In this document: positions 16,643 through 44,073 of the stretch, in pieces | Layout of the letters: the number at the start of each line of letters is the position of its first letter | Position numbering within the stretch: position 1 is the first letter of the stretch | DNA from: a virus | Length of the DNA stretch: 64,000 bases | Virus record (IMG/VR): IMGVR_UViG_3300043399_000877 | Coordinates: 62,001-126,000 of that record | Reading direction: 5' to 3' (one strand) | Notes under the pieces: generated by a model | What the model was told of the DNA's origin: nothing | The model's database searches: none | The model's input: the letters and a program-made list of their open reading frames with translations, nothing else | Position numbers and translations under genes: made by a program

Positions 16643-16671
16643 TTGACATGCCTGCCTTCTTCAACTATACC
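16643..16671 (+). promoter_or_regulatory. Hairpin-embedded early promoter of cca
   Basis: TTGACA, 17-nt spacer, TATACC. Inverted-repeat arms CATGCCTGCC (16647-16656) and GGCAGGCATG (16686-16695) enclose the -10; the right arm includes part of the AGGAGG site and the ATG. Confidence 0.85.
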
Positions 16672-16692
16672 ACAGACAAATAGGAGGCAGGC

Positions 16693-17922
16693 ATGAAGAC
16701 ATACTTAGTAGGTGGGGCTGTCAGAGACATGCTGATGGGCATGGACCCCAAAGATCGTGACTATGTGGTGGTGGGCGCATCGGCTGCACAGATGATTGCC
16801 GATGGTTTTGAGCGCGTGGGCGCAGAGTTTCCGGTGTTCCTGCATCCCGGAACCGGCGAGGAATATGCGCTGGCAAGAACCGAGCGCAAGACCGGTTCCG
16901 GCTACACGGGCTTCTCGACGGAGTTCGGTCCAGACGTGACGCTGGAGCAAGACCTGGCGCGGCGTGACCTGACCATCAACAGCATTGCCTATGACGTGTC
17001 CGGTTACGGCGGATATATCGATCCGTTCGGTGGCGAAGATGACATCCGGAATCGTATGCTGCGGCATACTTCGGATGCCTTCGCAGAAGATCCGGTTCGT
17101 GTGCTGCGGCTGGCGCGTTTTCGTGCCAGACTGGGGCCGACCTGGGTCATTGCACCCGAGACAGTTGAACTGATCTCCAAGATGGCCAAGAGCGGTGTGC
17201 TGACAGAGCTGACTGCTGAACGCGTCTGGAAGGAAATGAGCCGAGCGCTGATGGAACCGTATGCGCGTCTGTTCTTCGATACGCTGATGGAGACCGATTC
17301 GCTGCATGTGATCTTTCCGGAAGTGTATCGACTGAAGACTGCTCTGGAAGCGCGTCGTTGGCATCCGGAAGGTGACGCTTACGAGCATACCATGCTGGTG
17401 CTGTCGCAGGCTGTGGAGTTTGGATTCGATCTCGAGACTCGTATGGCTGCACTGGTTCACGATTTCGGCAAGGCAGCAACTCCGCGAGATCGGTTGCCCC
17501 GACATCACGGGCACGAGGTCACAGGTGTTCCGATTGTTGAAAACTTCTGCAAGCGGCTGCGGGTGCCCAGCACCATGCAGACCAGACTGCCGCGAGTGAC
17601 CAGATACCATATGCACATGCATCGTCTGGATGAGCTGAAATCGTCTACCGTTGTTGACATGTTCGAACGGATGGACGCCTTCCGGGATCTTCCGGTAGTC
17701 ACTCTGCTGTGGCAACTGGCTATCTGCGACGAGCGTGGCAGACTGGGTTCGGAGAATGCCGAGTTCGGACAGCTGTCCCAGATCCTTTACATGCAAGACG
17801 CAGCCCGTTCTGTTCGGTTTGTGGACGTGTTCCCTAGCGGTGAACCGGATCACACAAAAATCCGATCCGGTATGCACCGAGTCCGTGTGGCGGCTGTCCA
17901 AAATCAACGAAACTCCAAATAA
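16693..17922 (+). CDS. cca: CCA-adding tRNA nucleotidyltransferase
   Basis: 409 residues, almost the length of E. coli Cca (412) and colinear with it. It adds or repairs the 3' CCA of tRNAs from CTP and ATP. Visible motifs: LVGGAVRD (5-12), KDRDYVVVG with the catalytic DxD at 21/23, EEYALARTERK, RRDLTINS (nucleotide-binding), EDPVRVLRLARF, and an HD domain (LVHDFGKA, RHHGHE). All key residues are seen, so it is probably active. A complete bacterial-type Cca is unusual in a phage. The start codon is inside a hairpin arm. Three phage tRNAs lie 3 kb upstream. Confidence 0.95.
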   Translation: MKTYLVGGAVRDMLMGMDPKDRDYVVVGASAAQMIADGFERVGAEFPVFLHPGTGEEYALARTERKTGSGYTGFSTEFGPDVTLEQDLARRDLTINSIAYDVSGYGGYIDPFGGEDDIRNRMLRHTSDAFAEDPVRVLRLARFRARLGPTWVIAPETVELISKMAKSGVLTELTAERVWKEMSRALMEPYARLFFDTLMETDSLHVIFPEVYRLKTALEARRWHPEGDAYEHTMLVLSQAVEFGFDLETRMAALVHDFGKAATPRDRLPRHHGHEVTGVPIVENFCKRLRVPSTMQTRLPRVTRYHMHMHRLDELKSSTVVDMFERMDAFRDLPVVTLLWQLAICDERGRLGSENAEFGQLSQILYMQDAARSVRFVDVFPSGEPDHTKIRSGMHRVRVAAVQNQRNSK

Positions 17923-17934
17923 GAGAACACCGGA

Positions 17935-18150
17935 ATGAAATGGAATTCTCCAATCCGTTCTGACATAACGGTTAAAAGAAAATACGCATGGATTCCAACA
18001 CGGATGGATGATGGCACCTTCTTGTGGTTCGAATACTACTACGAGCGTTGGGTGTTTCATCTGCTCCCAATGGATCGTAGTTTTTGGGAAGTGGCCGGCA
18101 GAACTGTCGACCACCCTAATGATCCCGGAACTGGTAGCAAAACGTCATAA
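17935..18150 (+). CDS. Small hypothetical protein
   Basis: 71 residues, aromatic-rich (FLWFEYYYERWVFHLL). It starts 12 nt after cca and probably shares its transcript. Function unknown. Confidence 0.65.
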   Translation: MKWNSPIRSDITVKRKYAWIPTRMDDGTFLWFEYYYERWVFHLLPMDRSFWEVAGRTVDHPNDPGTGSKTS

Positions 18151-18153
18151 CCT

Positions 18154-18181
18154 CCAGCGTCAAAAAACATCTTGACGCTGG
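18154..18181 (+). terminator. Hairpin overlapping the next -35
   Basis: CCAGCGTCAA-aaaacatc-TTGACGCTGG, 10-bp perfect stem. Its right arm contains the -35 of the 18172 promoter. There is no T tract after it. Confidence 0.5.
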
Positions 18182-18200
18182 CTGACAGACAGCGTATAAG
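18172..18200 (+). promoter_or_regulatory. Early promoter for 18228
   Basis: TTGACG, 17-nt spacer, TATAAG. Confidence 0.85.
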
Positions 18201-18227
18201 AGCTGGAGAACAACGGGAGACAAGGCT

Positions 18228-18440
18228 ATGAGCTACGACATGCGACACGGCGGCCCTTACGACAGGGGCTCTGCTGACAGTTACTATCGGCGCAGCCCGG
18301 AACCGCACTACTACCGTGGCGGCGCGGGCAGGTGGGAAATGGTGCCTGAAGCCCAAATGACGGCGGCTGAAATCGAAGCCTACCTGGCCGGTTACCGTGA
18401 AAACGACGACTTCAAGGACTGGGGTCGTGATGAAGACTAA
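18228..18440 (+). CDS. Conserved small phage protein (MRHGGPYDRGSADSYYRR)
   Basis: 70 residues. HGGPYDRGSADSYYRR followed by PHYYRGG and MTAAEIEAYLAGY is a pattern I know from many phage genomes as a small conserved protein of unknown function. It overlaps the next start by 11 nt. Confidence 0.8.
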   Translation: MSYDMRHGGPYDRGSADSYYRRSPEPHYYRGGAGRWEMVPEAQMTAAEIEAYLAGYRENDDFKDWGRDED

Positions 18441-18654
18441 CACGGTGTTCCGTATAATCAACCGAGAGACTGGGGAAGTCGATGTTTGCACTTCGGCGGC
18501 AGAGGTGGTGGAGCGGATGCTGGGTCGGCGGTATAAACAGTATATCGTGATCAAAAGTGAAGAAGACGAACACAGAGAGCGAATTCGTGACGTGCTGGTT
18601 CCGATAACCAGTCCAGACGTTCGATATCTTGAACTGCAACTGAACATTCTGTAA
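18430..18654 (+). CDS. Small hypothetical protein
   Basis: The ATG at 18430 gives MKTNTVFRIINRETGEVDV, 74 residues; it overlaps the upstream gene, suggesting coupling. Function unknown. Confidence 0.65.
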   Translation: MKTNTVFRIINRETGEVDVCTSAAEVVERMLGRRYKQYIVIKSEEDEHRERIRDVLVPITSPDVRYLELQLNIL

Positions 18655-18665
18655 AGGAGAAGACT

Positions 18666-19136
18666 ATGGGTCTTGACATGTATCTGAACGCCAGCCGTTT
18701 CCTCTGGGACCTGGGTGATGATCCGGATGTGAAACTGGCCGTTGATATCGGCGCCATGTTTCCGGAACTCAAGGGCAAGCGGGCTCGTGAGGTCAGCACC
18801 GAACTGTTCTACTGGCGCAAGGCCAACGCAATCCACAAATGGTTCGTGGATACCGTCCAGGAAGGGCGAGACGACTGCGGCTACTATCCGGTCGAGCTCG
18901 AGCAGTTGGCCACCTTGCGGGACCTTTGCCGGCTCGTGCTGGGGAACCCGGACAGCGCCAGTCGTCTGTTGCCCACGCAGGGCGGGTTCTTTTTTGGCGG
19001 GACCGACTACGACGAATATTATTTCCAGGATCTGGAACGAACCGTCCAGTTCTTGGATGAATTCCTTCCTGAATATACCGATGATGCGAGCAGCCCTTGG
19101 CGGCGCTGGCAAATAGAATATCACTCCAGCTGGTGA
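18666..19136 (+). CDS. Conserved phage protein, MGLDMYL family
   Basis: 156 residues. MGLDMYLNAS, FYWRKANAIHKWFV, DDCGYYPV and GGFFFGGTDYDEYYFQD mark a widespread phage family that is sometimes annotated as phosphoglycerate kinase with no kinase motif behind it. No ATP-binding motif is visible here. Function unknown. GGAGAAG precedes the ATG. Confidence 0.85.
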   Translation: MGLDMYLNASRFLWDLGDDPDVKLAVDIGAMFPELKGKRAREVSTELFYWRKANAIHKWFVDTVQEGRDDCGYYPVELEQLATLRDLCRLVLGNPDSASRLLPTQGGFFFGGTDYDEYYFQDLERTVQFLDEFLPEYTDDASSPWRRWQIEYHSSW

Positions 19137-19154
19137 CAATCATCGGTGGCGGGC

Positions 19155-19183
19155 TTGACACTGGCTGTTGAGCCCGCTATAAG
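19155..19183 (+). promoter_or_regulatory. Early promoter for 19207
   Basis: TTGACA, 17-nt spacer, TATAAG. Arms GCGGGCT (19149-19155) and AGCCCGC (19171-19177) enclose most of the spacer. Confidence 0.85.
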
Positions 19184-19206
19184 CAGATGAACAACAGGAG
19201 ACGCAG

Positions 19207-19650
19207 ATGGGAACTCGAAGCCTAACTCGATTCATGGAGGACGGCAAACCGATTGTTTGCCTTTACGGCCAGTATGATGGGTATATTACCGGTCACGGGC
19301 GTGAGCTTGCCAACGTCCTGCGTGACGGTCGTATGGTGAACGGCCTTCGCGGTGGCACGGAAAAAGTGTTTAACGGTGCCGGCTGTCTCGCTGCCCAGGT
19401 GACGGCAGCATTCAAAGACGGTCCCGGCGGATATTACCTTCACTCACCGGATTCGGAAGACGAGGAATACACCTACGACCTTGAGGTCCGTATGACACCG
19501 GGCCGTTTTGGTCCCGAGCCCCAGCCGGAGATCCAGGTGTCGGTCCGTTCTTACGGTGACCTCTTGTTTACCGGACCGCACAGTGAGTTCGTTCAATGGG
19601 CATTTTTGGAGGAGAGCGATGATGAAGAAGACACTGAAGAAAATCGGTGA
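19207..19650 (+). CDS. Conserved phage protein, MGTRSLTRF family
   Basis: 147 residues beginning MGTRSLTRFMEDGKPIVCLYGQYDGY, with ITGHG and YYLHSP, known from many phages. The acidic tail EESDDEEDTEE overlaps another reading frame at 19619. It is related in its start to the 27171 fragment and the 27977 gene. Function unknown. Confidence 0.8.
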   Translation: MGTRSLTRFMEDGKPIVCLYGQYDGYITGHGRELANVLRDGRMVNGLRGGTEKVFNGAGCLAAQVTAAFKDGPGGYYLHSPDSEDEEYTYDLEVRMTPGRFGPEPQPEIQVSVRSYGDLLFTGPHSEFVQWAFLEESDDEEDTEENR

Positions 19651-19705
19651 TGCCGTGTGGTGGGTGTTGACACTGGCCTACTACTCTGCTATGATGCTGG
19701 TGTGA
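19619..19705 (+). CDS. Membrane microprotein (28 aa)
   Basis: MMKKTLKKIGDAVWWVLTLA then a hydrophobic tail. A GGAGGAG site lies 5-8 nt upstream. It overlaps the end of the 19207 gene in another frame and contains the next gene's promoter inside its coding sequence. Translation is plausible but unproven. Confidence 0.45.
   Translation: MMKKTLKKIGDAVWWVLTLAYYSAMMLV
19667..19695 (+). promoter_or_regulatory. Early promoter for 19707
   Basis: TTGACA, 17-nt spacer, TATGAT. It starts transcripts almost at the ATG of 19707, so that gene would have a very short leader. Confidence 0.7.
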
Positions 19706-19706
19706 C

Positions 19707-19892
19707 ATGCATCATTTGGTAAACTTGCTTGCAGAGGCAGGCGTGACGCGACCCGAGCATGTTCGCTCAATCGCGCAAGTGATCCTGATGTCACAAATGG
19801 ACCGCAGTCTGGTTGAAGCTGCTGAAGAAATCAGCAACGCCGCAGACGGCGATATCATCAAAATCTGGCAACAGGTTTTTGGAGGAAACTGA
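19707..19892 (+). CDS. Small helical protein
   Basis: 61 residues, all-helical pattern (LVNLLAEAG, SLVEAAEEISNAA). It overlaps the next gene by 1 nt. Function unknown. Confidence 0.6.
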   Translation: MHHLVNLLAEAGVTRPEHVRSIAQVILMSQMDRSLVEAAEEISNAADGDIIKIWQQVFGGN

Positions 19893-20149
19893 TGAGCGAT
19901 ATCGATCCTAACAACGTCTATTCCGATGTGGAAATCACCCTGCGGCTTCCGCGTGTGATCACTGCACTCGACTATCACGAGTTTGGAGAAATCCAACGAA
20001 TGATTGAGGAGAAGCTGGGCGTCACGGGTGTTTACGTCACCGAAGTAGGATTCATGGCACCGGAGTATGTGGGCCTAATCCACGTGAATACCGAAAGCCA
20101 CAATCAGCTGGTGATGGAACTGGAACGGTATTACCAGGAACAGGAATAA
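19892..20149 (+). CDS. Small hypothetical protein
   Basis: 85 residues with GGAGG upstream, alternating strands and a helix (EIQRMIEEKLGV), possibly ferredoxin-like. Function unknown. Confidence 0.65.
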   Translation: MSDIDPNNVYSDVEITLRLPRVITALDYHEFGEIQRMIEEKLGVTGVYVTEVGFMAPEYVGLIHVNTESHNQLVMELERYYQEQE

Positions 20150-20153
20150 CGGG

Positions 20154-20411
20154 ATGCGGACCTACTACTTCAATCAGTGGGGGCACCATGTCCCCACTGA
20201 GGTAGGTCATTATCGTATGATTCCGGAATGGATCGACGTCGACAACCAGATGTGGAGCGAGCCCTACCATTTGTATGGTGACTTGGATACCGGGATACCC
20301 GTAAACAGTCCGCAGCACTTTATGCATCTGAGATCGATAAAACTATTGACAGAGCTCTGCAATCTTGCTAGGGCTCAAGAGCAACAAAAGGAAACAGCCA
20401 TATGCGTTTGA
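20154..20411 (+). CDS. Small hypothetical protein
   Basis: 85 residues. The promoter of rIIA (20346) lies inside its 3' end and it overlaps the rIIA start by 10 nt. Function unknown. Confidence 0.6.
   Translation: MRTYYFNQWGHHVPTEVGHYRMIPEWIDVDNQMWSEPYHLYGDLDTGIPVNSPQHFMHLRSIKLLTELCNLARAQEQQKETAICV
20346..20374 (+). promoter_or_regulatory. Early promoter for rIIA-like gene
   Basis: TTGACA, 17-nt spacer, TAGGGC (weak -10). Confidence 0.55.
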
Positions 20412-22534
20412 ATACTGCGCCCGAAAATCCCGTCACGATGGGAGGCGTTACTCATGTCAAAGAGTTTGGCATTCGTAACAGCGCCAAAGCCTTCTCGATC
20501 CTGTCGAGCGGCCTCTATGCCAACAAAATCCGAGCAATCATTCGTGAACTCGGCTGCAACGCCCGTGACAGTCATGTGGATGCCGGCCGTGCCGATCTAC
20601 CGTTTGATGTTCACTTGCCTACCAGCTTGGGCCCTTACTTTGCCATCCGCGATTACGGGACCGGTCTCACGCACGACCAGGTGTGCAAAATCTACACCAC
20701 CTATTTCGAGAGCACCAAGACCGAAAGTGACGACTTTATCGGCGCGCTGGGCTTGGGCAGCAAAAGCCCGTTCAGTTACACCGACAACTTCACCGTGACC
20801 GCCATCCGTGACGGCATCAAGGGCATCTATTCGGCATTCATCAACGACACTGGTGTGCCCAGCGTGGCGCTGATGCTGCAAGAGCCCACGGATGAACCCA
20901 CTGGCGTTGAAGTTCGTTTCGCGGTTGAAAACCGGTATGATTTCCGCGAGTTCATTAACGAAGCGAGCGAAGTGTTCGTTCACTTCGCTGTCCAGCCGAA
21001 CTTCACCGGCGCAGAATGCAATGTGGCGGTCCACAGTTACGAAAACCGTGACATTATCCCGGGGGTCCATTCCCGCCTGCACGGTCGCAGCAATGTGGCG
21101 GTGATGGGCACTATCGAATATCCGATCGATTTGCCCAACTACTCGGGCCCGCTGAACGATTTGCAGCATATCGATCGCATGGGTCTCGAAATCCACTTTG
21201 CAATCGGCGAGATCGACTTTCAGGCAAGCCGTGAGGGTTTGCAATACACCAAAGAAACGGTGTCGGCTATCACTGCAAAATATCAGCAGGTGGCTGCGGT
21301 GCTGGATCGGTTACTGGCCGAACACCTTGCCCAGTTTACCAACGTATGGGAACAGCGCCGGGCGATTATCGAACGTAGCCGCAGCACGGTGTGGAGCAGC
21401 TCGATTAACCGCTGGCTGAAAACCAACTCGAATCCGCTGATTGACCGTAGCCATTATGGCAGCATCTACAGCCGAGACATTGAAATCACACCGCAGAAAT
21501 TGCGCGACGATTACAATATGGAAGTCCGCGGTTTCGTTTACGACACCTATCCGCGGCGTGCTCGCGATCACAATCCGGTCAACTACGACGGCAACATTGT
21601 GTTCCGTCCTGACTATCAGATGATGCTGGTGCCCAATCGCAAAAACGAAAAGATCCAGCAACGGTTGAAAAACCATATGAAGGAATCCGGCGGCGACGAG
21701 CGCAAGAACATCTTCTTGTTCACTCCCGCAGATCCGGAGAAGGAGATGGGTTTTGAACGGTTCCTGACCACGGTGCTGTTGGACCCGCCGGCTGACACGG
21801 TTGTCGAAGGTTCGGCTATTCCCAAGGTTGTGCGCCAGGCTCGCGCCAAGTCCGAACCCATCAACATCATGCAGCTTCGCATGGATCAGAATCGCCGGCA
21901 CCAGAGCTACACTTCGGCGATCAGCTGGCAACCGCTGGTGGTTCCGGACATTACCCAGCTGGATCAGAATCAAAAGTTCTACTACCTGAACCTCAAAGGG
22001 TTCGAGGCGTCCATGCAGAGCGGTGACTTGGTCGCTGCAAAGGAAGTCTACCACTATATGCTGAATACCGAATTGGCTGTGCTGAGTGGTGCGCGAGTGT
22101 TTGGCGTTCGCAAAGGCGACATCGAGGCTGTCCGGGCACAGGCGAACTGGATTCCGTTGGAGGACTTGATCAGCGAGACCATCAACGGACTCAGCACCGG
22201 TAAGTTCGTTACTGGCATCATAAAAAGCCTTGACAGCAATGCCCGGAGCGTATATACTCGGGACATTGCAGCCAAGATCGACATCAACAGCCCGTTCCGT
22301 AAGGCTGTTGAGAGTATGGACGTGAGTGAAAACTTCAATGTCTATTACTTGCAGAAACTGGCAAGCATGTTTAACCTCAAACTGGATCTGGAAAAGATGC
22401 AGGCTGATGCGACAAAAGTGATTCGGGAGGTAAACGAGCGTTATCCCCTTATTCGACACCTACGGTATGGCTTCGACGAGGCCGCTGTGGCGGAATACAT
22501 CAACATCGTCGACAACTCGAAGCAAGACATCTAA
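20402..22534 (+). CDS. rIIA: rIIA-like GHKL ATPase-domain protein
   Basis: 710 residues, close to T4 rIIA (about 725). The GHKL nucleotide-binding fold is visible: N-box RELGCNARDSH (48-58), DYGTGL (84-89) and the lid GALGLGSKSPF (114-124). In T4, rIIA and rIIB are membrane-associated proteins that counter lambda Rex exclusion and affect lysis timing. Its adjacency to rIIB confirms the identity. There is no transmembrane segment. An internal promoter at 22230 may drive rIIB separately. Confidence 0.92.
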   Translation: MRLNTAPENPVTMGGVTHVKEFGIRNSAKAFSILSSGLYANKIRAIIRELGCNARDSHVDAGRADLPFDVHLPTSLGPYFAIRDYGTGLTHDQVCKIYTTYFESTKTESDDFIGALGLGSKSPFSYTDNFTVTAIRDGIKGIYSAFINDTGVPSVALMLQEPTDEPTGVEVRFAVENRYDFREFINEASEVFVHFAVQPNFTGAECNVAVHSYENRDIIPGVHSRLHGRSNVAVMGTIEYPIDLPNYSGPLNDLQHIDRMGLEIHFAIGEIDFQASREGLQYTKETVSAITAKYQQVAAVLDRLLAEHLAQFTNVWEQRRAIIERSRSTVWSSSINRWLKTNSNPLIDRSHYGSIYSRDIEITPQKLRDDYNMEVRGFVYDTYPRRARDHNPVNYDGNIVFRPDYQMMLVPNRKNEKIQQRLKNHMKESGGDERKNIFLFTPADPEKEMGFERFLTTVLLDPPADTVVEGSAIPKVVRQARAKSEPINIMQLRMDQNRRHQSYTSAISWQPLVVPDITQLDQNQKFYYLNLKGFEASMQSGDLVAAKEVYHYMLNTELAVLSGARVFGVRKGDIEAVRAQANWIPLEDLISETINGLSTGKFVTGIIKSLDSNARSVYTRDIAAKIDINSPFRKAVESMDVSENFNVYYLQKLASMFNLKLDLEKMQADATKVIREVNERYPLIRHLRYGFDEAAVAEYINIVDNSKQDI
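22230..22258 (+). promoter_or_regulatory. Internal promoter within rIIA
   Basis: TTGACA, 17-nt spacer, TATACT, 289 nt upstream of the rIIB ATG. It is a better consensus than the promoter in front of rIIA. Confidence 0.6.
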
Positions 22535-23407: not shown

Positions 23408-23436
23408 TTGACAAGGCTAGGTGCCCCTGCTATATG
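23408..23436 (+). promoter_or_regulatory. Hairpin-embedded early promoter for 23465
   Basis: TTGACA, 17-nt spacer, TATATG. Perfect arms GGTGCCCC (23420-23427) and GGGGCACC (23439-23446) flank the -10. Confidence 0.85.
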
Positions 23437-23464
23437 TGGGGGCACCAGCATGAGAGGACACGAG

Positions 23465-26228: not shown

Positions 26229-26257
26229 TTGACTCCTGGGTTGGCTGAGCATATATT
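26229..26257 (+). promoter_or_regulatory. Hairpin-embedded promoter masking the RBS of 26282
   Basis: TTGACT, 17-nt spacer, TATATT. Arms CTCCTGGGTT (26233-26242) and AACCCAGGAG (26266-26275) pair perfectly over 10 bp; the right arm covers most of the AGGAGG ribosome-binding site. Confidence 0.85.
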
Positions 26258-26281
26258 GCACTGGTAACCCAGGAGGACAAG

Positions 26282-27227: not shown

Positions 27228-27888
27228 CTTTACCGCGACCCTGAATAAAATCCGGTCCCGGTTGATTAACGCTCCGTATGCACTGAACTCCGTTGTTCCA
27301 CCATTTTAGTTTGGAAACACCTTCCGAGTTCTTTTTTCGCCAGTCAGCATCTTGATTGATGCCTTTGTTTATACCTACAATTTCCCCAGTATTCCATCTT
27401 GGATCATTTGGTGATACTTTTATTTTTTCACCTGTTGATACTAGCTTTGCTGGTATTGAAGTAAATTCCGGATTGCGATTTTGTTTGCGTCCCTTTTGTG
27501 ATGGTGGAGATATTCCTAAAAGCAAATTTCGATCTCTTACTTTTTGTTTTGCTTCTTCATTCCATCCCCTATTTCCGTCACCACCGTCTGTTTGGTTTGT
27601 TAGGACGCCGGTCCCCAAATCCCGTCTACCATAAGTCGATATAAGTTCTATCTCAAGGCCAGTGGCTTGTTCACGAGTAAGGTTGTTGTGAACTATCTCG
27701 ATTAAAGGATCTTTTCCTTCTTCTAATAGTTTTCGAATTGCGTTGAGTTTGTGTTGGCCCGACTCGGGAATTGGATTTAGTTTTGCCTCTTTTAAGTGAG
27801 CAAATCGACGACGACCTTTACCCATTCCTACATAAAAGGGTTCTAGCGTGTCAGGGTTTCGATATAGGTATGTATAATAATTGTTCAT
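27217..27888 (-). CDS. GIY-YIG homing endonuclease
   Basis: ATG at 27888 (MNNYYTYLYRNPDT); 223 residues. The GIY-YIG core appears as YYTYLY...PFYVGMGKGRR, followed by the catalytic-region arginine/glutamate helices. The C-terminal part is a basic DNA-binding region (SPPSQKGRKQNRNPEF) with a NUMOD-like look. It is AT-rich, on the opposite strand to all neighbours, with its own GATAAATA late promoter and its end inside a truncated gene: a mobile insertion. Confidence 0.85.
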   Translation of the reverse strand: MNNYYTYLYRNPDTLEPFYVGMGKGRRRFAHLKEAKLNPIPESGQHKLNAIRKLLEEGKDPLIEIVHNNLTREQATGLEIELISTYGRRDLGTGVLTNQTDGGDGNRGWNEEAKQKVRDRNLLLGISPPSQKGRKQNRNPEFTSIPAKLVSTGEKIKVSPNDPRWNTGEIVGINKGINQDADWRKKNSEGVSKLKWWNNGVQCIRSVNQPGPDFIQGRGKVKW

Positions 27889-27892
27889 ATTG

Positions 27893-27900
27893 TATTTATC
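27893..27900 (-). promoter_or_regulatory. T4-type late promoter GATAAATA
   Basis: Minus-strand octamer 5 nt before the 27888 ATG. If used, the leader is almost nil. Confidence 0.5.
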
Positions 27901-27925
27901 GAACAATTATTTTTCGGATGGCTAC

Positions 27926-27976: not shown

Positions 27977-28432
27977 ATGGGAACGCGCGGAATGATTGGC
28001 ATCAAGAATGCCGATGGAACCATCGATGCGATTTATTGTCATTGGGACTCGTATCCGGAACACAATGGTCGTATCCTGAGCGAACACTACCAGGACGAAT
28101 CCAAAGTTCGTGAACTAATCGGTCTCGGCGACATCAGCTCGCTGCGTGAAGAGATCGGTGAACAGCATCCCTTCGACACCTACCACCTGAAAAAAGAAGA
28201 TATGGATCCCAGATGGGATCGCTGGACCGTAGCATACGGTCGTGACCGAGGCGAGACCGGCATTGAAGCCAAGAACTACCACAACGAAACCTTCTTTGTG
28301 GGCGGGGCTAAATCGTGCGGTGCCGAATACGCATACCTTTTCGATAATGGCGAGTGGGGCGTGGTTGGAATCGGAATCCCGCGCCGGCCCACGTTCAGCA
28401 AACTCGAAGCGGTTCTTCAAGACAGTGATTGA
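27977..28432 (+). CDS. MGTR-family conserved phage protein
   Basis: 151 residues: MGTRGMIGIKNADGT, then YCHWDSYPEHNGRIL. This family occurs in many phages with no known role. It is the intact relative of the 27171 fragment and is distantly related to the 19207 protein by its start. Confidence 0.8.
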   Translation: MGTRGMIGIKNADGTIDAIYCHWDSYPEHNGRILSEHYQDESKVRELIGLGDISSLREEIGEQHPFDTYHLKKEDMDPRWDRWTVAYGRDRGETGIEAKNYHNETFFVGGAKSCGAEYAYLFDNGEWGVVGIGIPRRPTFSKLEAVLQDSD

Positions 28433-28457
28433 CACGCCAGCCAGCCCGTGCTAGACG
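28429..28457 (+). promoter_or_regulatory. Hairpin-embedded early promoter for 28482
   Basis: TTGACA, 17-nt spacer, TAGACG. Perfect arms CAGCCCGT (28442-28449) and ACGGGCTG (28455-28462) with the -10 in the loop. Confidence 0.8.
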
Positions 28458-28481
28458 GGCTGACGAAACGGAGGGCAGCGA

Positions 28482-31941: not shown

Positions 31942-31970
31942 TTGACAACCCGCCCGTGCCCGTGTTAAGT
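31942..31970 (+). promoter_or_regulatory. Hairpin-embedded promoter/terminator before 32004
   Basis: TTGACA, 17-nt spacer, TTAAGT (weak -10). Arms GCCCGTGCC (31952-31960) and GGCACGGGC (31975-31983) form a 9-bp stem followed by TTTT, so read-through RNA from the ATPase gene could terminate here. Confidence 0.7.
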
Positions 31971-32003
31971 CACTGGCACGGGCTTTTAACGGGAGTAAAC
32001 ATC

Positions 32004-36851: not shown

Positions 36852-36880
36852 TGTCTAGCATATGCTGTCGGGCGTGTCAA
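36852..36880 (-). promoter_or_regulatory. Promoter of small RNA copy 1
   Basis: Minus strand: TTGACA, 17-nt spacer, TAGACA in a TGCTAGACA context. Divergent from the plus promoter at 36914 across an AT-rich tract. Confidence 0.8.
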
Positions 36881-37066: not shown

Positions 37067-37603
37067 ATGAGCGTTAACAATAACTTTTCGGTCGTCGGCG
37101 TGTCGCGTCAGTTCGGCAAACTGAAGATCCGTATGGCGAACGACCGTGCGTGGCGTGAGTTCATGCTGACCAAAGAGGGTCACGTGGATATCCAGCTGCT
37201 GGACCTCGGCACTGTGATGCCCAAGGAACGGGCGATCGAGCTGGCGATGGCTGCAACTGCCATCCAGGAGGACGGCTCGCTGGCGCCGGTGTTTGGCGAA
37301 GAAGCGCAGGAGGTGTTCCGCGCTTACTTGATCAGCAAGGGCATCATCGAGCGCCCGAAGCGCAAGCGCGGCCGCCCGGCGAAGGCTGCTGACGAGCCCG
37401 TGACGAGCGAGGCTGAGGCGCCCCAGCAGGAGCCCGTGGCTGAGCTGCCCGAGCAGGAGACGCCCGCTGAAGAGCCCGCAGCGCCGGCGCTGACCGTGGA
37501 CGACATGCCCAAACGCGACGAGAAAGGCCGGCTGCTGAGCCGTGCGGCGCGTGAGGCGCTGCTGGCGGAGCGGCTGGGGGTGACGGAGGGGGAGGTGGCG
37601 TAA
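37067..37603 (+). CDS. AT-hook protein, paralog A
   Basis: 178 residues. The N-terminal half (to about 95) is shared with the 37992 product (FKLRMA-like KLKIRMAND, AYLISKGIIE). An AT-hook follows (RPKRKRGRPAKA; core RGRP), which binds the minor groove of AT-rich DNA. The C-terminal half is alanine/glutamate/proline-rich with RAAREALLAERLGV. Together with its small RNA and promoters it is one unit of a tandem duplication. Role unknown; a DNA-binding regulator is likely. Confidence 0.8.
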   Translation: MSVNNNFSVVGVSRQFGKLKIRMANDRAWREFMLTKEGHVDIQLLDLGTVMPKERAIELAMAATAIQEDGSLAPVFGEEAQEVFRAYLISKGIIERPKRKRGRPAKAADEPVTSEAEAPQQEPVAELPEQETPAEEPAAPALTVDDMPKRDEKGRLLSRAAREALLAERLGVTEGEVA

Positions 37604-37616: not shown

Positions 37617-37645
37617 GACATAACACAACAGGACAGCGGTGTCAA
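37617..37645 (-). promoter_or_regulatory. Antisense promoter in the terminator of 37067 gene
   Basis: Minus strand: TTGACA in the terminator loop, 17-nt spacer, TATGTC. It points into the 37067 gene. Confidence 0.5.
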
Positions 37646-37662
37646 GCGCCGCTGTCCTTTTT
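37631..37662 (+). terminator. Intrinsic terminator after 37067 gene
   Basis: GGACAGCGG/CCGCTGTCC 9-bp stem followed by TTTTTC. Confidence 0.85.
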
Positions 37663-37737: not shown

Positions 37738-37742
37738 AGTTC

Positions 37743-37991: not shown

Positions 37992-38426
37992 ATGACCAAG
38001 ATTTACAACGCCGCCGGTGTTTCCCGTGTCCGTGCTGACCAGCCGTTCAAGCTGCGTATGGCCACCGACATCGAATGGCGCCGGTTCGACCTGGCCCGCG
38101 GGCAGCACGTGGATGTGACGCTGGTCACGCTGCCCGAGTCGATGGACAAGATCCAGGCTGTCCAGTTCCTGCAGACGGCGCCGGAGTTTGTGGACAACGC
38201 CGAAGCGCAGGCCGTGTTCACTGCCTACTTGATGAGCAAGGGCGTGATCGAAAAGCCCAAGAAGAAGCGCGGCCGCCCGGCCAAGGCGAAGGTGGAGGAG
38301 GCTGCTGGCACCGAGGCGCCGGCTGCTGACGGGCTCGGCGACGAGCTGGTTGACGCTGCTGCCGAGACGCCGGCCGTGCAGGCGGTGGTGGAAGAGAACA
38401 CCGCCGAGTTCGAGCCCGAGCACTGA
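37992..38426 (+). CDS. AT-hook protein, paralog B
   Basis: 144 residues. The N-terminal half parallels the 37067 product (AGVSRVRADQPFKLRMA, AYLMSKGVIEKPKKKRGRPAKA). The AT-hook is at about 98-108, followed by an alanine/glutamate-rich tail that is shorter than in paralog A. Second unit of the tandem duplication. Confidence 0.8.
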   Translation: MTKIYNAAGVSRVRADQPFKLRMATDIEWRRFDLARGQHVDVTLVTLPESMDKIQAVQFLQTAPEFVDNAEAQAVFTAYLMSKGVIEKPKKKRGRPAKAKVEEAAGTEAPAADGLGDELVDAAAETPAVQAVVEENTAEFEPEH

Positions 38427-38434: not shown

Positions 38435-38458
38435 GGGGCGGCATTATAGTGCCGCCCC
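38435..38458 (+). terminator. Hairpin after 37992 gene
   Basis: GGGGCGGCA/TGCCGCCCC, 9-bp stem, 6-nt loop that is the -10 of a minus-strand promoter. No T run follows. Confidence 0.5.
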
Positions 38459-38471
38459 ACCCACTTGTCAA
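38443..38471 (-). promoter_or_regulatory. Perfect-consensus antisense promoter
   Basis: Minus strand: TTGACA, 17-nt spacer, TATAAT, exact consensus, with the -10 in a 9-bp hairpin. It points into the 3' end of the 37992 gene; there is no minus-strand gene to serve. Confidence 0.75.
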
Positions 38472-38932: not shown

Positions 38933-38939
38933 AAGTGCT

Positions 38940-38968
38940 TGACACTGGTGCCGGCGGCTGCTATGTTG
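38940..38968 (+). promoter_or_regulatory. Hairpin-embedded early promoter for 38995
   Basis: TTGACA, 17-nt spacer, TATGTT. Arms TGCCGGC (38950-38956) and GCCGGCA (38969-38975). Confidence 0.8.
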
Positions 38969-38994
38969 CCGGCATACAGACAGAGGAGACAACG

Positions 38995-39203: not shown

Positions 39204-39232
39204 TTGACACGGGCCACGGCCCGTGTTACTAC
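39204..39232 (+). promoter_or_regulatory. Early promoter with spacer hairpin for 39266
   Basis: TTGACA, 17-nt spacer, TACTAC. ACACGGGC-cacg-GCCCGTGT fills the spacer as an 8-bp hairpin. Confidence 0.75.
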
Positions 39233-39265
39233 ACTGACACAACGGCAAAACAAGGAGCAAATTAC

Positions 39266-39556
39266 ATGGACGAGCGTCAGAAGGCAGCGATGGAGTTCCT
39301 GGCCGAGGAACTCAGCCGCGAGCTGGAGTTCCAACAGTCAGACGAGTATCTGGGCGACGACATCGTGCCGTTGCTTCGCGAGATGCAGGAGCGCATCGAA
39401 CGCAACGACATTCCCACGCTGGCAGAGCTCGAGGCGTGGAGCCTGCGGGTGTATGATGTGACACGCGGCGACGCGATGTATGGCGACACTGACATGGCGG
39501 ACGGGCTCGTGGAGGGGCTGGCGGCGGCGCTGGAGTTGACTGAAGAAACTGCTTGA
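39266..39556 (+). CDS. Small acidic helical protein
   Basis: 96 residues, MDERQKAAMEFLAEELSREL, AAGGAG upstream. Strongly acidic, helical. Function unknown. Confidence 0.65.
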   Translation: MDERQKAAMEFLAEELSRELEFQQSDEYLGDDIVPLLREMQERIERNDIPTLAELEAWSLRVYDVTRGDAMYGDTDMADGLVEGLAAALELTEETA

Positions 39557-39581
39557 CACTGACGCCCAGTCCTGCTATTGA
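39553..39581 (+). promoter_or_regulatory. Hairpin-embedded early promoter for 39611
   Basis: TTGACA, 17-nt spacer, TATTGA. Arms GCCCAGTCC (39564-39572) and GGACTGGGC (39586-39594), 9 bp. Confidence 0.8.
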
Positions 39582-39610
39582 TGTGGGACTGGGCAACACA
39601 GGAGGCTGGC

Positions 39611-39868: not shown

Positions 39869-39877
39869 AAAAAGTGG

Positions 39878-39906
39878 TTGACACTGGCTCTGGCTGATGC
39901 TATAAC
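39878..39906 (+). promoter_or_regulatory. Early promoter for 39934
   Basis: TTGACA, 17-nt spacer, TATAAC. Confidence 0.85.
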
Positions 39907-39933
39907 TGGAGCATGGAAACAACGGAGGCGACG

Positions 39934-40275
39934 ATGACGCTGACAAGGGAACAGGTTGTGGCGCTGGTGACCCGGACCGATGCGGTGGCGATGCATGCCA
40001 TCGGCCGTGCGCTGGTGCACTTGTTGAACCGTCAGACGCGCGAGGAGAGCCGCGATAATGTGACGCGCAACCTCAACGACGTGGGCTTCACGCCCGCCGA
40101 TGCGCGCATGGGTTGCATCCACGCCAAATGCTACATCAAGCGCGGCGAGCTCGAGGAATGGCAGGTTCGCTACTGGCAGCGGCCCAACGCCAAAGGCGTA
40201 CCGCGTATCGCCAAGTATTGGCGACAGCTGGCCGAGGAAGCGGCGCGGAAAGCGGTTGCAAGGGCGGCCGCTTGA
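39934..40275 (+). CDS. Hypothetical protein
   Basis: 113 residues from the ATG with GGAGG upstream (MTLTREQVVALVTRTDAVAM). Basic C-terminus (WRQLAEEAARKAVARAA). The next gene's promoter starts inside its last codons. Function unknown. Confidence 0.65.
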   Translation: MTLTREQVVALVTRTDAVAMHAIGRALVHLLNRQTREESRDNVTRNLNDVGFTPADARMGCIHAKCYIKRGELEEWQVRYWQRPNAKGVPRIAKYWRQLAEEAARKAVARAAA

Positions 40276-40284
40276 TGCTATACT
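40256..40284 (+). promoter_or_regulatory. Early promoter for 40310
   Basis: TTGCAA, 17-nt spacer, TATACT. Confidence 0.75.
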
Positions 40285-40309
40285 GGTCGGGCAACACGAG
40301 GAGACACCG

Positions 40310-40660
40310 ATGGAACTAGATATCGCCGAGATCGTCGCCGCCCTGCAAGCTCACCTCCAGACGGCCACTGTGGTCAACGGCTGGCGCTATCCGGTCGAGC
40401 AGGTCATCTGCGCGGACGGCGCCCGCTTCAGCGTCCAGGCCAGCCGGTATACCTACTGCCAGCCGCGCAACGATGTCGGGCCCTGGACGCACGTCGAGGT
40501 GATGACCATCACCGATGGGGTCACGCCCAGCTGCTGGACTCACGACGCCGGGGACAATCTGGCCGGCTATGTGCCGATCGAAGCCGTTGCGAAAGAAATT
40601 TGGCTTCGTGGAAAAAAGCTCTTGACTGGCACTGACATTCCTGCTATCACGTGTGAGTAG
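40310..40660 (+). CDS. Hypothetical protein
   Basis: 116 residues, MELDIAEIVAALQAHLQTAT, GAGGAG upstream. Mixed alpha/beta. The next promoter (40622) lies in its 3' end. Function unknown. Confidence 0.65.
   Translation: MELDIAEIVAALQAHLQTATVVNGWRYPVEQVICADGARFSVQASRYTYCQPRNDVGPWTHVEVMTITDGVTPSCWTHDAGDNLAGYVPIEAVAKEIWLRGKKLLTGTDIPAITCE
40622..40650 (+). promoter_or_regulatory. Early promoter for 40680
   Basis: TTGACT, 17-nt spacer, TATCAC. Confidence 0.7.
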
Positions 40661-40679
40661 GCAACAAGGAGCAACGACG

Positions 40680-40871
40680 ATGAAAGTGACGCGCAAAAAT
40701 CCGTTCACCGGCCAGATGCTGACCCGTGAGATCCCCGTGACCGAGGAGCAACTGATGGCCTGGCAGGATGGGGAGCTGATCCAGAATGCCATGCCCAACA
40801 TCAGCGCGGAAGACCGCGAGTTCATCAAGAGCGGCATCACGGCCGAGCAATGGGAAGAAATGTTCGGCTGA
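40680..40871 (+). CDS. Small hypothetical protein
   Basis: 63 residues, MKVTRKNPFTGQMLTREIPV. It resembles short phage proteins with PFTG...PVT-x-E-Q...W, two helices. Function unknown. Confidence 0.65.
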   Translation: MKVTRKNPFTGQMLTREIPVTEEQLMAWQDGELIQNAMPNISAEDREFIKSGITAEQWEEMFG

Positions 40872-40885
40872 CGGCAAAATAACGG

Positions 40886-40914
40886 TTGACTCCCGGAAGG
40901 GAGTCAGCTATACC
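40886..40914 (+). promoter_or_regulatory. Palindromic-spacer promoter, copy 1
   Basis: TTGACT, 17-nt spacer, TATACC. GACTCCC-ggaa-GGGAGTC (40888-40905). Nearly identical copies are at 41118 and 41440. Confidence 0.85.
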
Positions 40915-40940
40915 ACTGACATGGAAAACAGGAGAGCAAG

Positions 40941-41108
40941 ATGTTCGGATACAAGAAAGTCGGAACGGTCAAGACCTTCGAAGCCACGGTGCGGGCCGGG
41001 ATGGCGCTCACCAAAGTGACTGTCAATGCCGACAGCACCTATGCGGCGCGCAAGCAATTGGAGGGCATCTACGGTGCCAACAACGTCAAGAGTGTTCGCC
41101 AACTCTGA
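40941..41108 (+). CDS. Small hypothetical protein (55 aa)
   Basis: MFGYKKVGTVKTFEATVRAG; basic, strand-rich then helix. GGAGAG upstream. Function unknown. Confidence 0.65.
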   Translation: MFGYKKVGTVKTFEATVRAGMALTKVTVNADSTYAARKQLEGIYGANNVKSVRQL

Positions 41109-41117
41109 AGAAAGTGG

Positions 41118-41146
41118 TTGACTCCCGGAAGGGAGTCAGCTATACC
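41118..41146 (+). promoter_or_regulatory. Palindromic-spacer promoter, copy 2
   Basis: TTGACT, 17-nt spacer, TATACC; same GACTCCC/GGGAGTC hairpin. Confidence 0.85.
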
Positions 41147-41173
41147 ACTGACATGGAAGCAAGGAGCAACGAG

Positions 41174-41431
41174 ATGGACACTGGTTGGAGACTGGCCACC
41201 AAGGAAGAGATCCGGGAGATGCAGGATCTCCCTGGCGCGCCGCATGTGACTTTCGGCTGCACCTGCTGCGGCATGGTGAACTGGACTGCCAAGAACCTCG
41301 CGCTGAACAGCGACGGTCGCTACACCGGAGCTCGCAACATCTTCGTGAGCGACTGGACTCGCGGCGAGTGTGAGTGCCCCAGCACCCACCTGCGGGCCGT
41401 GGTGCGGGAAAAAGAATCCGTCCTGGCCTAA
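41174..41431 (+). CDS. Small putative zinc-finger protein
   Basis: 85 residues. CTCCGM and ECECPSTH provide CxC/CxxC-like cysteine sets, suggesting a small metal site. GGAGCAAC upstream. Function unknown. Confidence 0.65.
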   Translation: MDTGWRLATKEEIREMQDLPGAPHVTFGCTCCGMVNWTAKNLALNSDGRYTGARNIFVSDWTRGECECPSTHLRAVVREKESVLA

Positions 41432-41439
41432 GAAAGTGG

Positions 41440-41468
41440 TTGACTCCCGGAAGGGAGTCAGCTATAAC
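41440..41468 (+). promoter_or_regulatory. Palindromic-spacer promoter, copy 3
   Basis: TTGACT, 17-nt spacer, TATAAC; same hairpin. Confidence 0.85.
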
Positions 41469-41495
41469 ACTGACATGGAAGCAAGGAGCAACGAG

Positions 41496-41861
41496 ATGAC
41501 CGACACTGTGAACCCGGAACTGAAGCCCGTCACCGAGATCCGTGACGAGATGCTGGCCGCGGCGCGTGATGCCGCCAACCGCAAGTTCGCCGAGATCGGC
41601 GGCGACCGCTACGCCTGCGGCTTTGCGTGGGTGACTGTTTACCCCAAACACAAGGGCAACACGCGGGCGGGCCGCGCCGAGCGCGAGACGCTGCGGGCGA
41701 TGGGCTTTGAGCTGGACTACACCGGCAAGGCGTTCCAGCTCTGGAACCCCAGCAACCACTCCTGTCAGAACGTGGACACCAAGGAGGCCGGCGCACAGGC
41801 TGCGGCTTCGGTGCTGCGCCGCTACGGGATCGAGGCCTGGGCGGGGTCGCGACTGGACTGA
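41496..41861 (+). CDS. Hypothetical protein
   Basis: 121 residues. DRYACGFAWVTVYPKHKGNT, then LRAMGFELDY and a small C-terminal alpha/beta. Similar proteins occur in phages (CGFAWV motif). Function unknown. Confidence 0.7.
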   Translation: MTDTVNPELKPVTEIRDEMLAAARDAANRKFAEIGGDRYACGFAWVTVYPKHKGNTRAGRAERETLRAMGFELDYTGKAFQLWNPSNHSCQNVDTKEAGAQAAASVLRRYGIEAWAGSRLD

Positions 41862-41870
41862 AAATAACTG

Positions 41871-41899
41871 TTGACACGGGCTCCATGCAGTGCTATAAG
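41871..41899 (+). promoter_or_regulatory. Hairpin-embedded early promoter for 41927
   Basis: TTGACA, 17-nt spacer, TATAAG. Arms TCCATGCAG (41882-41890) and CTGCATGGA (41902-41910), 9 bp. Confidence 0.85.
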
Positions 41900-41926
41900 T
41901 GCTGCATGGAAACAACGGAGGCACGG

Positions 41927-42211
41927 ATGCGCGCTTACGATCCCCGAGACGGTTACTTTACCTACAACCCCCAGACCCGGACCTTCAGCGCCGATGCCAG
42001 CGACCTCGCCTGGCCCGCGGGTTCGGCCTGCTATGAGTTCCAGCTCAAGAGCGAGCTCACCGGCACGTTCGTCAACATGGAGCGCATCGATCCCACGCGG
42101 AATGCCGAGGGCGAGATCCTGTGGTTCAACTACCGCAGCCGGTGCATCACCAGCGAAGATCCCACAGTGGATCTCCATCAGACCTATTATGCGAGGGTGT
42201 TCAACGACTGA
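41927..42211 (+). CDS. Small hypothetical protein
   Basis: 94 residues, MRAYDPRDGYFTYNPQTRTF, beta-rich, GGAGG upstream. Function unknown. Confidence 0.65.
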   Translation: MRAYDPRDGYFTYNPQTRTFSADASDLAWPAGSACYEFQLKSELTGTFVNMERIDPTRNAEGEILWFNYRSRCITSEDPTVDLHQTYYARVFND

Positions 42212-42220
42212 AGAAAGTGG

Positions 42221-42249
42221 TTGACATCCAGGTCGGCATCCGCTAGGGT
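42221..42249 (+). promoter_or_regulatory. Hairpin-embedded early promoter for 42276
   Basis: TTGACA, 17-nt spacer, TAGGGT. Arms GTCGGCA (42232-42238) and TGCCGAC (42249-42255). Confidence 0.75.
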
Positions 42250-42275
42250 GCCGACATACAACGAGGAGCAGACGG

Positions 42276-42614
42276 ATGGACGAGTTCATGACAGAGTTGG
42301 TGCCGGTTGCTGAGTGGGAATGGTGGTTGTGGCGCGTGACCTATAGGAGCGAATTCGGCGACAGTCAATCGTTTTTTGTGGTCAGCACCGAAGATCATCT
42401 GGACCTCGAAGTCGAGGACCGTTGGCCCAGCGATTGGTTCACCGAATACACATACGAGAAGATGTCGCGCTGTGGCGCTCCCCGGCAGCTCTGGTGTGCT
42501 GCTCGCAAGTGCCGGTATCCGGAATACGCCTGGGACGCTGGTGCCCGCGAGGCCGCTCGTCTCGGCTTCCAGATCACCGACCCGCAGCCGGAGATTTATG
42601 CCGAACTGGCATAA
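42276..42614 (+). CDS. Hypothetical protein
   Basis: 112 residues, MDEFMTELVPVAEWEWWLWR; tryptophan-rich, two cysteines (CAARKC). GAGGAG upstream. Function unknown. Confidence 0.65.
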   Translation: MDEFMTELVPVAEWEWWLWRVTYRSEFGDSQSFFVVSTEDHLDLEVEDRWPSDWFTEYTYEKMSRCGAPRQLWCAARKCRYPEYAWDAGAREAARLGFQITDPQPEIYAELA

Positions 42615-42621
42615 AAAACTG

Positions 42622-42650
42622 TTGACAGCTGGCAGACGGTCAGCTATACA
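42622..42650 (+). promoter_or_regulatory. Early promoter for 42681
   Basis: TTGACA, 17-nt spacer, TATACA. Confidence 0.85.
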
Positions 42651-42680
42651 CATGACATGGAAGCAAAGAGGAGCAACAAG

Positions 42681-43124
42681 ATGCGACCAGTGATTATGAA
42701 AGCCGGCACCTACTACATCGGTGACCTGTGCTATGTGCTGCACGACAGCTGGGATGAAGTTTGCAGCCTGATTATTCAGGGGCAGGCGGTGCTGGAGGGC
42801 CACTTCACCCTCAAAGACGGCCGCGAGTTCGCCATGTTCAACACCGCCTACGGCGATGGCACCTACACCGACAACCTGGGCGGGCGCTATCCGGTGGACG
42901 CCGGCAACATCGGCTGCATCTTGCTGGAGTCGGTGGACCGCTCGGATCAGGACGACGTCACGTTGGGCGTGACGCACACCTTCGATGCGGACTTTGTCTG
43001 CGACACCGACGGGCGCACCATCGAGTTCGGCAGTATCCGGATCCCAACCGCAGACGACGAGGACGACTGGGAAGATGACGACCTTTACGACGACTGGGAA
43101 GAAGATTTGTTCGACGAGCCCTGA
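42681..43124 (+). CDS. Conserved phage protein (GDLCYVLHDSWDEVC family)
   Basis: 147 residues. YYIGDLCYVLHDSWDEVC, DGREFAMFNTAYGDGTY and DAGNIGCI mark a conserved beta-rich phage family of unknown role. Acidic tail of about 20 D/E/W/Y residues. Confidence 0.8.
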   Translation: MRPVIMKAGTYYIGDLCYVLHDSWDEVCSLIIQGQAVLEGHFTLKDGREFAMFNTAYGDGTYTDNLGGRYPVDAGNIGCILLESVDRSDQDDVTLGVTHTFDADFVCDTDGRTIEFGSIRIPTADDEDDWEDDDLYDDWEEDLFDEP

Positions 43125-43130
43125 TTCTGC

Positions 43131-43159
43131 TTGACACTGTTGCCGGCAACTGTTATGTT
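43131..43159 (+). promoter_or_regulatory. Hairpin-embedded early promoter for 43182
   Basis: TTGACA, 17-nt spacer, TATGTT. Arms TGCCGGCAAC (43141-43150) and GTTGCCGGCA (43157-43166), 10 bp, with the -10 in the loop. Confidence 0.85.
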
Positions 43160-43181
43160 GCCGGCACACAGGGAGGACGTG

Positions 43182-43307
43182 ATGGACGAACAAGACGACT
43201 ACTTTTCCGAGACTACCGAAGGTCGCTGGACTGCCGGTTGGTGGATCGTGCCCAGTGTGATCCTGGGGGTAGTGATGCTGGTCGGACTCGGCTGGTGGAT
43301 AGCGTAA
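43182..43307 (+). CDS. Small membrane protein (41 aa)
   Basis: Acidic N-terminus (MDEQDDYFSE), then one transmembrane segment (WWIVPSVILGVVMLVGLGWW). AGGGAGG upstream. It precedes the cell-wall hydrolase; a lysis role is possible but unproven. Confidence 0.6.
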   Translation: MDEQDDYFSETTEGRWTAGWWIVPSVILGVVMLVGLGWWIA

Positions 43308-43338
43308 GCGACTTTCCGCTTACTCACCCAACTAACTG

Positions 43339-43366
43339 TTGACATACAGGCTGAGGCTGCTATAAG
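43339..43366 (+). promoter_or_regulatory. Early promoter for 43396
   Basis: TTGACA, 16-nt spacer, TATAAG. Confidence 0.75.
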
Positions 43367-43395
43367 TAACATACAACGACAAAAGGAGAAAACCA

Positions 43396-44016
43396 ATGAA
43401 GATGCGAACCATCCTCGGCGGTGTTGCTTCCTCAGCCGTGATTGGTGCTATGGCAGTGATTTACATAACGGCGGGCGAAGAGGCATACGCCGCCATAGAC
43501 CCAACAGAACTGATGATCCCGAGCCCGACTTATGATAGCGAGCGAATGATCGCCCTAGAGCCCGAGCTCACCAGTTCTGTTGCAACAATCCGACCGAGGC
43601 CGCGACCCGTAGGACTGGAGCGTCTGCCAGAATCGGCGAACAACCAGGACGAACAATACTGCCTAGCGCAGAACATCTATTTCGAAGCACGAGGCGAGGG
43701 CAGAATTGGCCAGGAGGCCGTTGCATGGGTCACGCTCAATCGCGTAATGGACCCGCGCTGGCCGGACACGATCTGCCGGGTCGTGTGGCAGGATAACCAG
43801 TTTAGCTGGACACACGACGGGCGGGGCGACACGCCGCGCGCCGGTGACATGTGGGATCAGGCCCGGGCGATTGCTGCACGAGTGACCGCCGAATACAATC
43901 CGGATCTCGATCCCACCGAAGGCAGTGTAATGTTTCACGCTGACTATGTCAACCCCGAATGGGAAGACAACTTCGTTCGGGTAGTGCAGATTGATGCTCA
44001 CATTTTTTACAGATAG
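43396..44016 (+). CDS. Cell-wall hydrolase, SleB/CwlJ type
   Basis: 206 residues. The N-terminal hydrophobic segment (VASSAVIGAMAVIYITAG) looks like a signal anchor. The C-terminal Hydrolase_2 domain (about 85-206) has CLAQNIYFEARGEG with the catalytic glutamate, AVAWVTLNRVMD, QFSW and the final VMFHADYV. This family cleaves peptidoglycan. With the following lipoprotein and membrane protein it may form the lysis cassette, although an early-type promoter drives it. Confidence 0.85.
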   Translation: MKMRTILGGVASSAVIGAMAVIYITAGEEAYAAIDPTELMIPSPTYDSERMIALEPELTSSVATIRPRPRPVGLERLPESANNQDEQYCLAQNIYFEARGEGRIGQEAVAWVTLNRVMDPRWPDTICRVVWQDNQFSWTHDGRGDTPRAGDMWDQARAIAARVTAEYNPDLDPTEGSVMFHADYVNPEWEDNFVRVVQIDAHIFYR

Positions 44017-44019
44017 TGA

Positions 44020-44048
44020 TTGACACACACCTCCCGTCTTGTTATACG
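44020..44048 (+). promoter_or_regulatory. Hairpin-embedded promoter masking the RBS of 44074
   Basis: TTGACA, 17-nt spacer, TATACG. Arms CTCCCGTCTTG (44031-44041) and CAAGACGGGAG (44056-44066), 11 bp perfect; the right arm is the GGGAG ribosome-binding site. Confidence 0.85.
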
Positions 44049-44073
44049 ATACTGGCAAGACGGGAGATACACA

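Follow-up and report, generated by a model that had tools for sequence, protein, structure and literature searches.

We analysed a window of 64,000 bp, comprising bases 62001-126000 of the 381,886-bp virus record IMGVR_UViG_3300043399_000877, in which early promoters are overlapped by inverted repeats capable of forming hairpins; the remainder of the record was also scanned for promoters. The genes of the window include rIIA/rIIB, a tRNA nucleotidyltransferase and a DnaB-type helicase, the nearest match of which (53% identity) belongs to PA5oct-type Pseudomonas phages. Comparison of a 14.5-kb stretch of the window at the DNA level revealed no matching phage record. The usual unit of the early region consists of a stop codon, 0-20 nt, a sigma70-type promoter, a leader of about 20 nt and a start codon. 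A search of the whole record for TTGAC[AGT]-N17-TA, with a Shine-Dalgarno sequence (SD) and a start codon no more than 75 nt downstream, yielded 78 promoters, about 46 of them inside the window. Their consensus, TTGACA-N14-TGC-TATAA, is that of sigma70-like early promoters with an extended -10 of the TGC-TATAA type. The transcription start (+1) was predicted to lie 12 nt after the first base of the -10 box.

The initial annotation had listed eleven inverted repeats at these promoters. All eleven are present, with perfect arms of 7-11 bp and loops of 5 to 27 nt; the pair placed at 38950/38969 does exist, but its true coordinates are one base off, at 38949-38955/38968-38974. The count of stems against shuffled sequence, which that annotation had proposed as a check, bore it out. 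Stems pairing the spacer with the 38 nt that follow it were counted, and three kinds of control were used. The 78 promoters had 12 stems of at least 7 bp, the shuffled or permuted controls 1.8-2.4; for stems of at least 8 bp the figures were 8 and 0.4-0.8. These ratios are to be read with the caveat that inverted repeats occur at about 2.5-3 times the shuffled expectation throughout the window, and natural sequence of the same region is therefore the better control. Against natural non-promoter sequence of the same early region, arms of at least 7 bp were found at 10 of 45 promoters (expected 1.87, p=1e-5) and arms of at least 8 bp at 8 of 45 (expected 0.55, p=7e-8). The centres of the repeats concentrate within the -10 hexamer (7 vs 0.3 for arms of at least 8 bp), with the reservation that the hairpins at 38939 and 43131 appear related. 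Thus, the hairpin feature is real and statistically strong, and it is concentrated in one early region. The suggestion that it appears genome-wide was too strong, as beyond the early plus-strand region unusually good folds were found at just 4 of 33 promoters. Weaker -10 boxes in hairpin promoters, as a cost of the stem, were considered, but the difference from the other promoters was not significant (p=0.14).

Hairpins also overlap promoters in other registers, namely in the spacer (40886, 41118, 41440, 39204 and 30061), over the -35 box (18172 and 19155) and upstream of it (14669); therefore the class centred on the -10 box is one among several. As the initial annotation had stated, the arm sequences are gene-specific, differing at almost every gene, with the exceptions of 40886/41118/41440 and 38939/43131.

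Folding of the promoter regions was compared with shuffled sequence on both strands. For 45 window promoters the mean z was -1.87 for the sense and -0.93 for the antisense strand, and the sense strand folded better at 34 of the 45 (p=0.0008). The same bias was obtained at 151 of 250 promoters of other phage contigs (p=0.001) and at 25 of 37 promoters of phage RB49. When tetraloop hairpins with arms of at least 6 bp between -35 and +1 were examined, 7 of 29 had GNRA or UNCG loops when read in the sense direction and none when read antisense (p=0.0003), although several of these cases stem from one RB49 motif family and are not fully independent. Folds with z<-2 were present at 16 of 30 promoters lying no more than 30 nt from the upstream stop codon, as compared to 2 of 12 distant ones (p=0.01). 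The sense-strand bias, the sense-only tetraloops and the dependence on a close upstream stop therefore place the signal at the RNA and not the DNA level. This agrees with the earlier proposal that the hairpin matters in read-through RNA, the signal being strand-specific and gaining in strength when the promoter directly adjoins an upstream gene. Locally started RNA would lack the left arm, as also proposed, since this arm is located in the spacer and so precedes the predicted +1; at 28429, 38939, 42221 and 43131 essentially both arms would be absent from it. With the predicted start at, inside or just after the 3' arm, the hairpin would therefore fold solely in RNA derived from upstream.

The eleven hairpins, all on the plus strand, differ in their relation to the downstream gene. 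The promoter at 16643-16695 (TTGACA-17-TATACC) carries arms CATGCCTGCCT/AGGCAGGCATG at 16647-16657/16685-16695, which overlie both the SD and the ATG of a cca-like gene (16693-17922). The SD likewise lies under the right arm at 26229-26275 (TTGACT-17-TATATT; arms CTCCTGGGTT/AACCCAGGAG at 26233-26242/26266-26275) and at 44020-44066 (TTGACA-17-TATACG; arms CTCCCGTCTTG/CAAGACGGGAG at 44031-44041/44056-44066). At 23408-23446 (TTGACA-17-TATATG) arms GGTGCCCC/GGGGCACC at 23420-23427/23439-23446 flank the -10 box and leave the SD free. The SD is also free at 31942-31987, a weak promoter with a poor -10 box (GTTAAG or TTAAGT), where arms GCCCGTGCC/GGCACGGGC at 31952-31960/31975-31983 are followed by TTTT. 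Both arms of the hairpin at 28429-28462 (TTGACA-17-TAGACG; CAGCCCGT/ACGGGCTG at 28442-28449/28455-28462) lie upstream of the predicted +1, and those at 43131-43166 (TTGACA-17-TATGTT; TGCCGGCAAC/GTTGCCGGCA at 43141-43150/43157-43166) end at it. The promoter at 38939-38974 (TTGACA-17-TATGTT) has the arms TGCCGGC/GCCGGCA at the corrected position given above, the RNA stem being lengthened by G-U pairs. At 42221-42255 (TTGACA-17-TAGGGT; GTCGGCA/TGCCGAC at 42232-42238/42249-42255) the RNA stem, capped by a GCUA loop, lengthens to 10 bp, one of them a U-G pair, and the fold has a z of -6.1. The remaining two are at 39553-39594 (TTGACA; GCCCAGTCC/GGACTGGGC at 39564-39572/39586-39594) and 41871-41910 (TTGACA-17-TATAAG; TCCATGCAG/CTGCATGGA at 41882-41890/41902-41910).

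Hairpins of the other registers on this strand include the spacer-class TGACTCCC-GGAA-GGGAGTCA at 40887-40906, which has a GNRA loop, covers the -35 box and spacer and recurs at 41119-41138 and 41441-41460; ACACGGGC/GCCCGTGT at 39207-39226, between the -35 and -10 boxes of promoter 39204; and CCAGCGTCAA/TTGACGCTGG at 18154-18181, the right arm of which forms the -35 box and spacer start of promoter 18172. On the minus strand, a perfect TTGACA-17-TATAAT at 38435-38471 has GGGGCGGCA/TGCCGCCCC around its -10 box; read on the plus strand, this is a hairpin behind the stop of gene 37992-38426. Between 36737 and 38501, three minus-strand promoters (36761, 37645 and 38471) sit on hairpins that end plus-strand genes, and would yield antisense RNA into the upstream genes. 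In one case, the terminator at 37630-37658, the loop contains the reverse -35 sequence TGTCAA.

Several further elements were observed in the window. Two minus-strand promoters that are paralogous to each other (TTGACA-17-TAGACA, at 36880 and 37771) precede predicted structured small RNAs (36885-36761 and 37776-37641), which share GGAGGGGAGGGCACGGAGGTCTG and fold alike, the first hairpin showing a compensatory change (CCGGC/GCCGG vs CGGGT/ACCCG). For this small RNA, Rfam gave no match at gathering level, and neither a further copy in the genome nor an exact match in viral_contigs was found. The adjacent genes 37067-37603 and 37992-38426, which adjoin these promoters, have translations that appear paralogous. 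The element CCCCGCTG[CT]TGG recurs on the plus strand at 5046, 9260, 34847, 36074, 36110 and 44615; across the whole record six copies were counted, every one on the same strand and inside the window. Related hairpins of the TGCAAGC/GCTTGCA type are clustered between small genes at 45692-46395.

The closest precedent, which the initial annotation overlooked, is the promoter early stem-loops (PeSLs) of phages RB49 and phi1. PeSLs were reportedly described in Krischvirus RB49/phi1 and other T4-like phages by Arbiol et al. in 2010 and Comeau et al. in 2014, and their stems are said to be effective terminators. As in PeSLs, a sigma70-type early promoter is fused here to a stem-loop among small variable early genes. 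PeSLs are built on two repeated motifs, whereas each gene here has arms of its own; in addition, hardly any T runs occur here, and a small number of the stems appear to seal the SD as well. Copies similar enough to recombine and shuffle genes were not found, the arms differing at almost every gene. Since the copies are too unlike to recombine, and a terminator role here is only putative, we do not class these hairpins as strict PeSLs. In RB49 itself the enrichment of arms of at least 7 bp is stronger than here, both centred on the spacer (10 vs 0.4) and on the -10 box (8 vs 0.4), and both geometries are also present in the window; examples from RB49 are GGGAGTA-gTAAGA-TACTCCC and GGGGATC-GCGA-GATCCCC. 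The arms of RB49-type hairpins are mostly kept across nine Krischvirus genomes, and in the Krischvirus orthologues of promoters 42355 and 39130 arm substitutions keep the pairing via sense-strand G-U pairs. Two Krischvirus records annotate these same RB49-type hairpins as putative transcriptional terminators, and PeSLs are titled promoter-terminator motifs in the reference list of PMC4503421. The same theme was observed in a distantly related jumbo phage of 353 kb (G007, locus L067 record), which has dozens of perfect TTGACA-17-TATAAT promoters, on the minus strand at about 324-347 kb and scattered elsewhere, with short hairpins in the spacers and recurring loops GGTAAAACC, GCGA and GAAA.

A second precedent comes from the T4 genes e, soc, 49 and I-TevI. 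RNA initiated upstream keeps their ribosome-binding site (RBS) sealed, and the site becomes accessible in transcripts that start from a promoter located within the left arm (PMC3014915; PMC2988022). The hairpins described here resemble these in having the left arm within the promoter, to be lost from local RNA, and in having the SD under the right arm at 16643, 26229 and 44020. Unlike the late promoters of T4, the promoters here are sigma70-type and most stems fall short of the SD. In seg43(25) of Aeromonas phage 25, a stable hairpin lies just upstream of an RBS that is not sequestered (PMC2988022), an arrangement like that seen here, seg43(25) being a single case.

If the T4 scheme applied throughout, every hairpin would seal the downstream RBS in read-through RNA, and translation would proceed only from RNA of the gene's own promoter. 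We computed the cost of opening the SD and start codon by folding read-through RNA and spacer-shuffled versions of it. The cost was clearly raised at 16643 (12.1 kcal/mol vs 2.6 shuffled and 0.8 native), 26229 (13.4 vs 6.8 shuffled) and 44020 (11.3 vs 5.8 shuffled and 1.7 native), gains of 5-10 kcal/mol that were seen at these three only; 10476 gained 1.6 kcal/mol (p=0.03). The start codon or SD lies inside the stem at the same three sites and, weakly, at 10476, but not across the set. A modest enrichment was also seen in relatives, with unusually sealed starts at 29 of 250 promoters as compared to 12.5 expected, as in L041 2501 (a 14-bp stem over the ATG) and in L071 1920 and L069 2096 (SD within the stem); the hairpin of the cca promoter was not conserved in them. 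In this phage, however, a raised cost (p<=0.05) was found at 5 of 78 promoters as compared to 3.9 expected, most right arms stop upstream of the SD, and several SDs are equally or more open, those at 43131 and 28429 being left more open by the hairpin. Thus, the insulation of each gene at translation, as proposed initially, holds for individual genes and not as a general rule; only three or four hairpins look able to block translation, and sealing as the function of all of them is improbable. A partner RegB endonuclease cutting at the next SD was considered and rejected, as RegB was not found in this phage by a search which detects it in T4 and RB49. It is similarly improbable that the hairpins simply serve the upstream gene as intrinsic terminators overlapping the next promoter, as in the strict sense of PeSLs. 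In favour of this, a T run comes after the stem at 31952, the stems of the spacer class precede the AT-rich -10 box, and the Krischvirus annotations and the title in the reference list mentioned above point the same way. Against this, the 8 nt behind each of the other ten of the eleven stems contain 0-1 T, whereas canonical T-run terminators do exist elsewhere in the window, at 37630-37658 and 27876-27911. The combination of a GC-rich stem and a trailing T run is thus not a property of the set, and the missing T runs mean that canonical intrinsic termination is not indicated.

Two further explanations dispense with an RNA function. The repeats might act as DNA: a cruciform, or an operator of palindromic form, could be centred at the -10 box and aid melting or bind a protein. 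The symmetry centre of the main class does fall inside the -10 hexamer or adjacent to it. But the arms differ and the spacer and -35 registers are also used, and on the same grounds the operator of a shared repressor, already thought unlikely in the initial annotation, was rejected. Together with the sense/antisense asymmetry, the RNA-type tetraloops and the dependence on an upstream gene, this makes a DNA element very unlikely. Hardly more credible is a neutral origin, in which inverted repeats left by template switching or gene conversion survive in the sole non-coding DNA of a compact genome. The general excess of inverted repeats across the window favours such an origin, but promoters exceed the natural background about 15-fold at arms of at least 8 bp, and the sense-strand bias also speaks against it.

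The geometry, the enrichment, the sense-strand bias, the dependence on a close upstream gene and the occurrence in RB49, as read from the sequences, are best accommodated by PeSL-like boundary hairpins with gene-specific arms, which are embedded in the promoter of the following gene and, in read-through RNA, would cap the message from upstream or attenuate it. We consider this reading somewhat better than even, with a probability of roughly 0.55. The promoter DNA (the spacer, the flanks of the -10 box and at times the -35 box) would double as the code for a hairpin. Polymerase arriving from the upstream gene would transcribe the promoter and so produce an RNA hairpin just behind the upstream stop codon, whereas RNA started at the promoter would begin at or inside the 3' arm and form none. 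The hairpin would act on upstream-derived RNA only, marking the end of the message by attenuating transcription and/or blocking 3' exonucleases. As it lies between the upstream stop and the SD at most sites, action on the upstream message is the more economical view. Where the 3' arm also overlies the RBS, as in three or four genes, translation would in addition be locked in the manner of T4 e/soc/I-TevI. The start sites, the read-through and the effect of the hairpin, whether termination, 3'-end protection or a translation block, are what we infer here. Several observations weigh against this reading. An unusual fold is lacking at over half of the early promoters, and T runs are scarce behind the stems. 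The counts of G-T and A-C mismatches inside stems showed no sense-strand bias in this genome, the cases being few, and no close relatives of the phage were found for orthologous covariation. Among the Krischvirus orthologues one arm is partly broken in ECD7, and some phi1-type changes enlarge the loop.

A broader design, with a gene-specific RNA switch embedded in the promoter of almost all early genes and read only by polymerases from upstream, appears doubtful on present evidence. The switch would be a 3'-end mark and at some genes a translation lock too, common to unrelated large phages and without tie to a repeated motif. For the narrower reading as boundary hairpins, the lack of a repeated motif in this phage suggests selection on the hairpin itself and not the spread of a recombining cassette. 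If that reading is true, the transcription units of dozens of single-gene early promoters 50-70 nt apart would be kept separate without extra DNA, the boundary being encoded by the promoter itself, and the PeSL idea would extend from T4-like coliphages to a jumbo phage that has no repeated motif.

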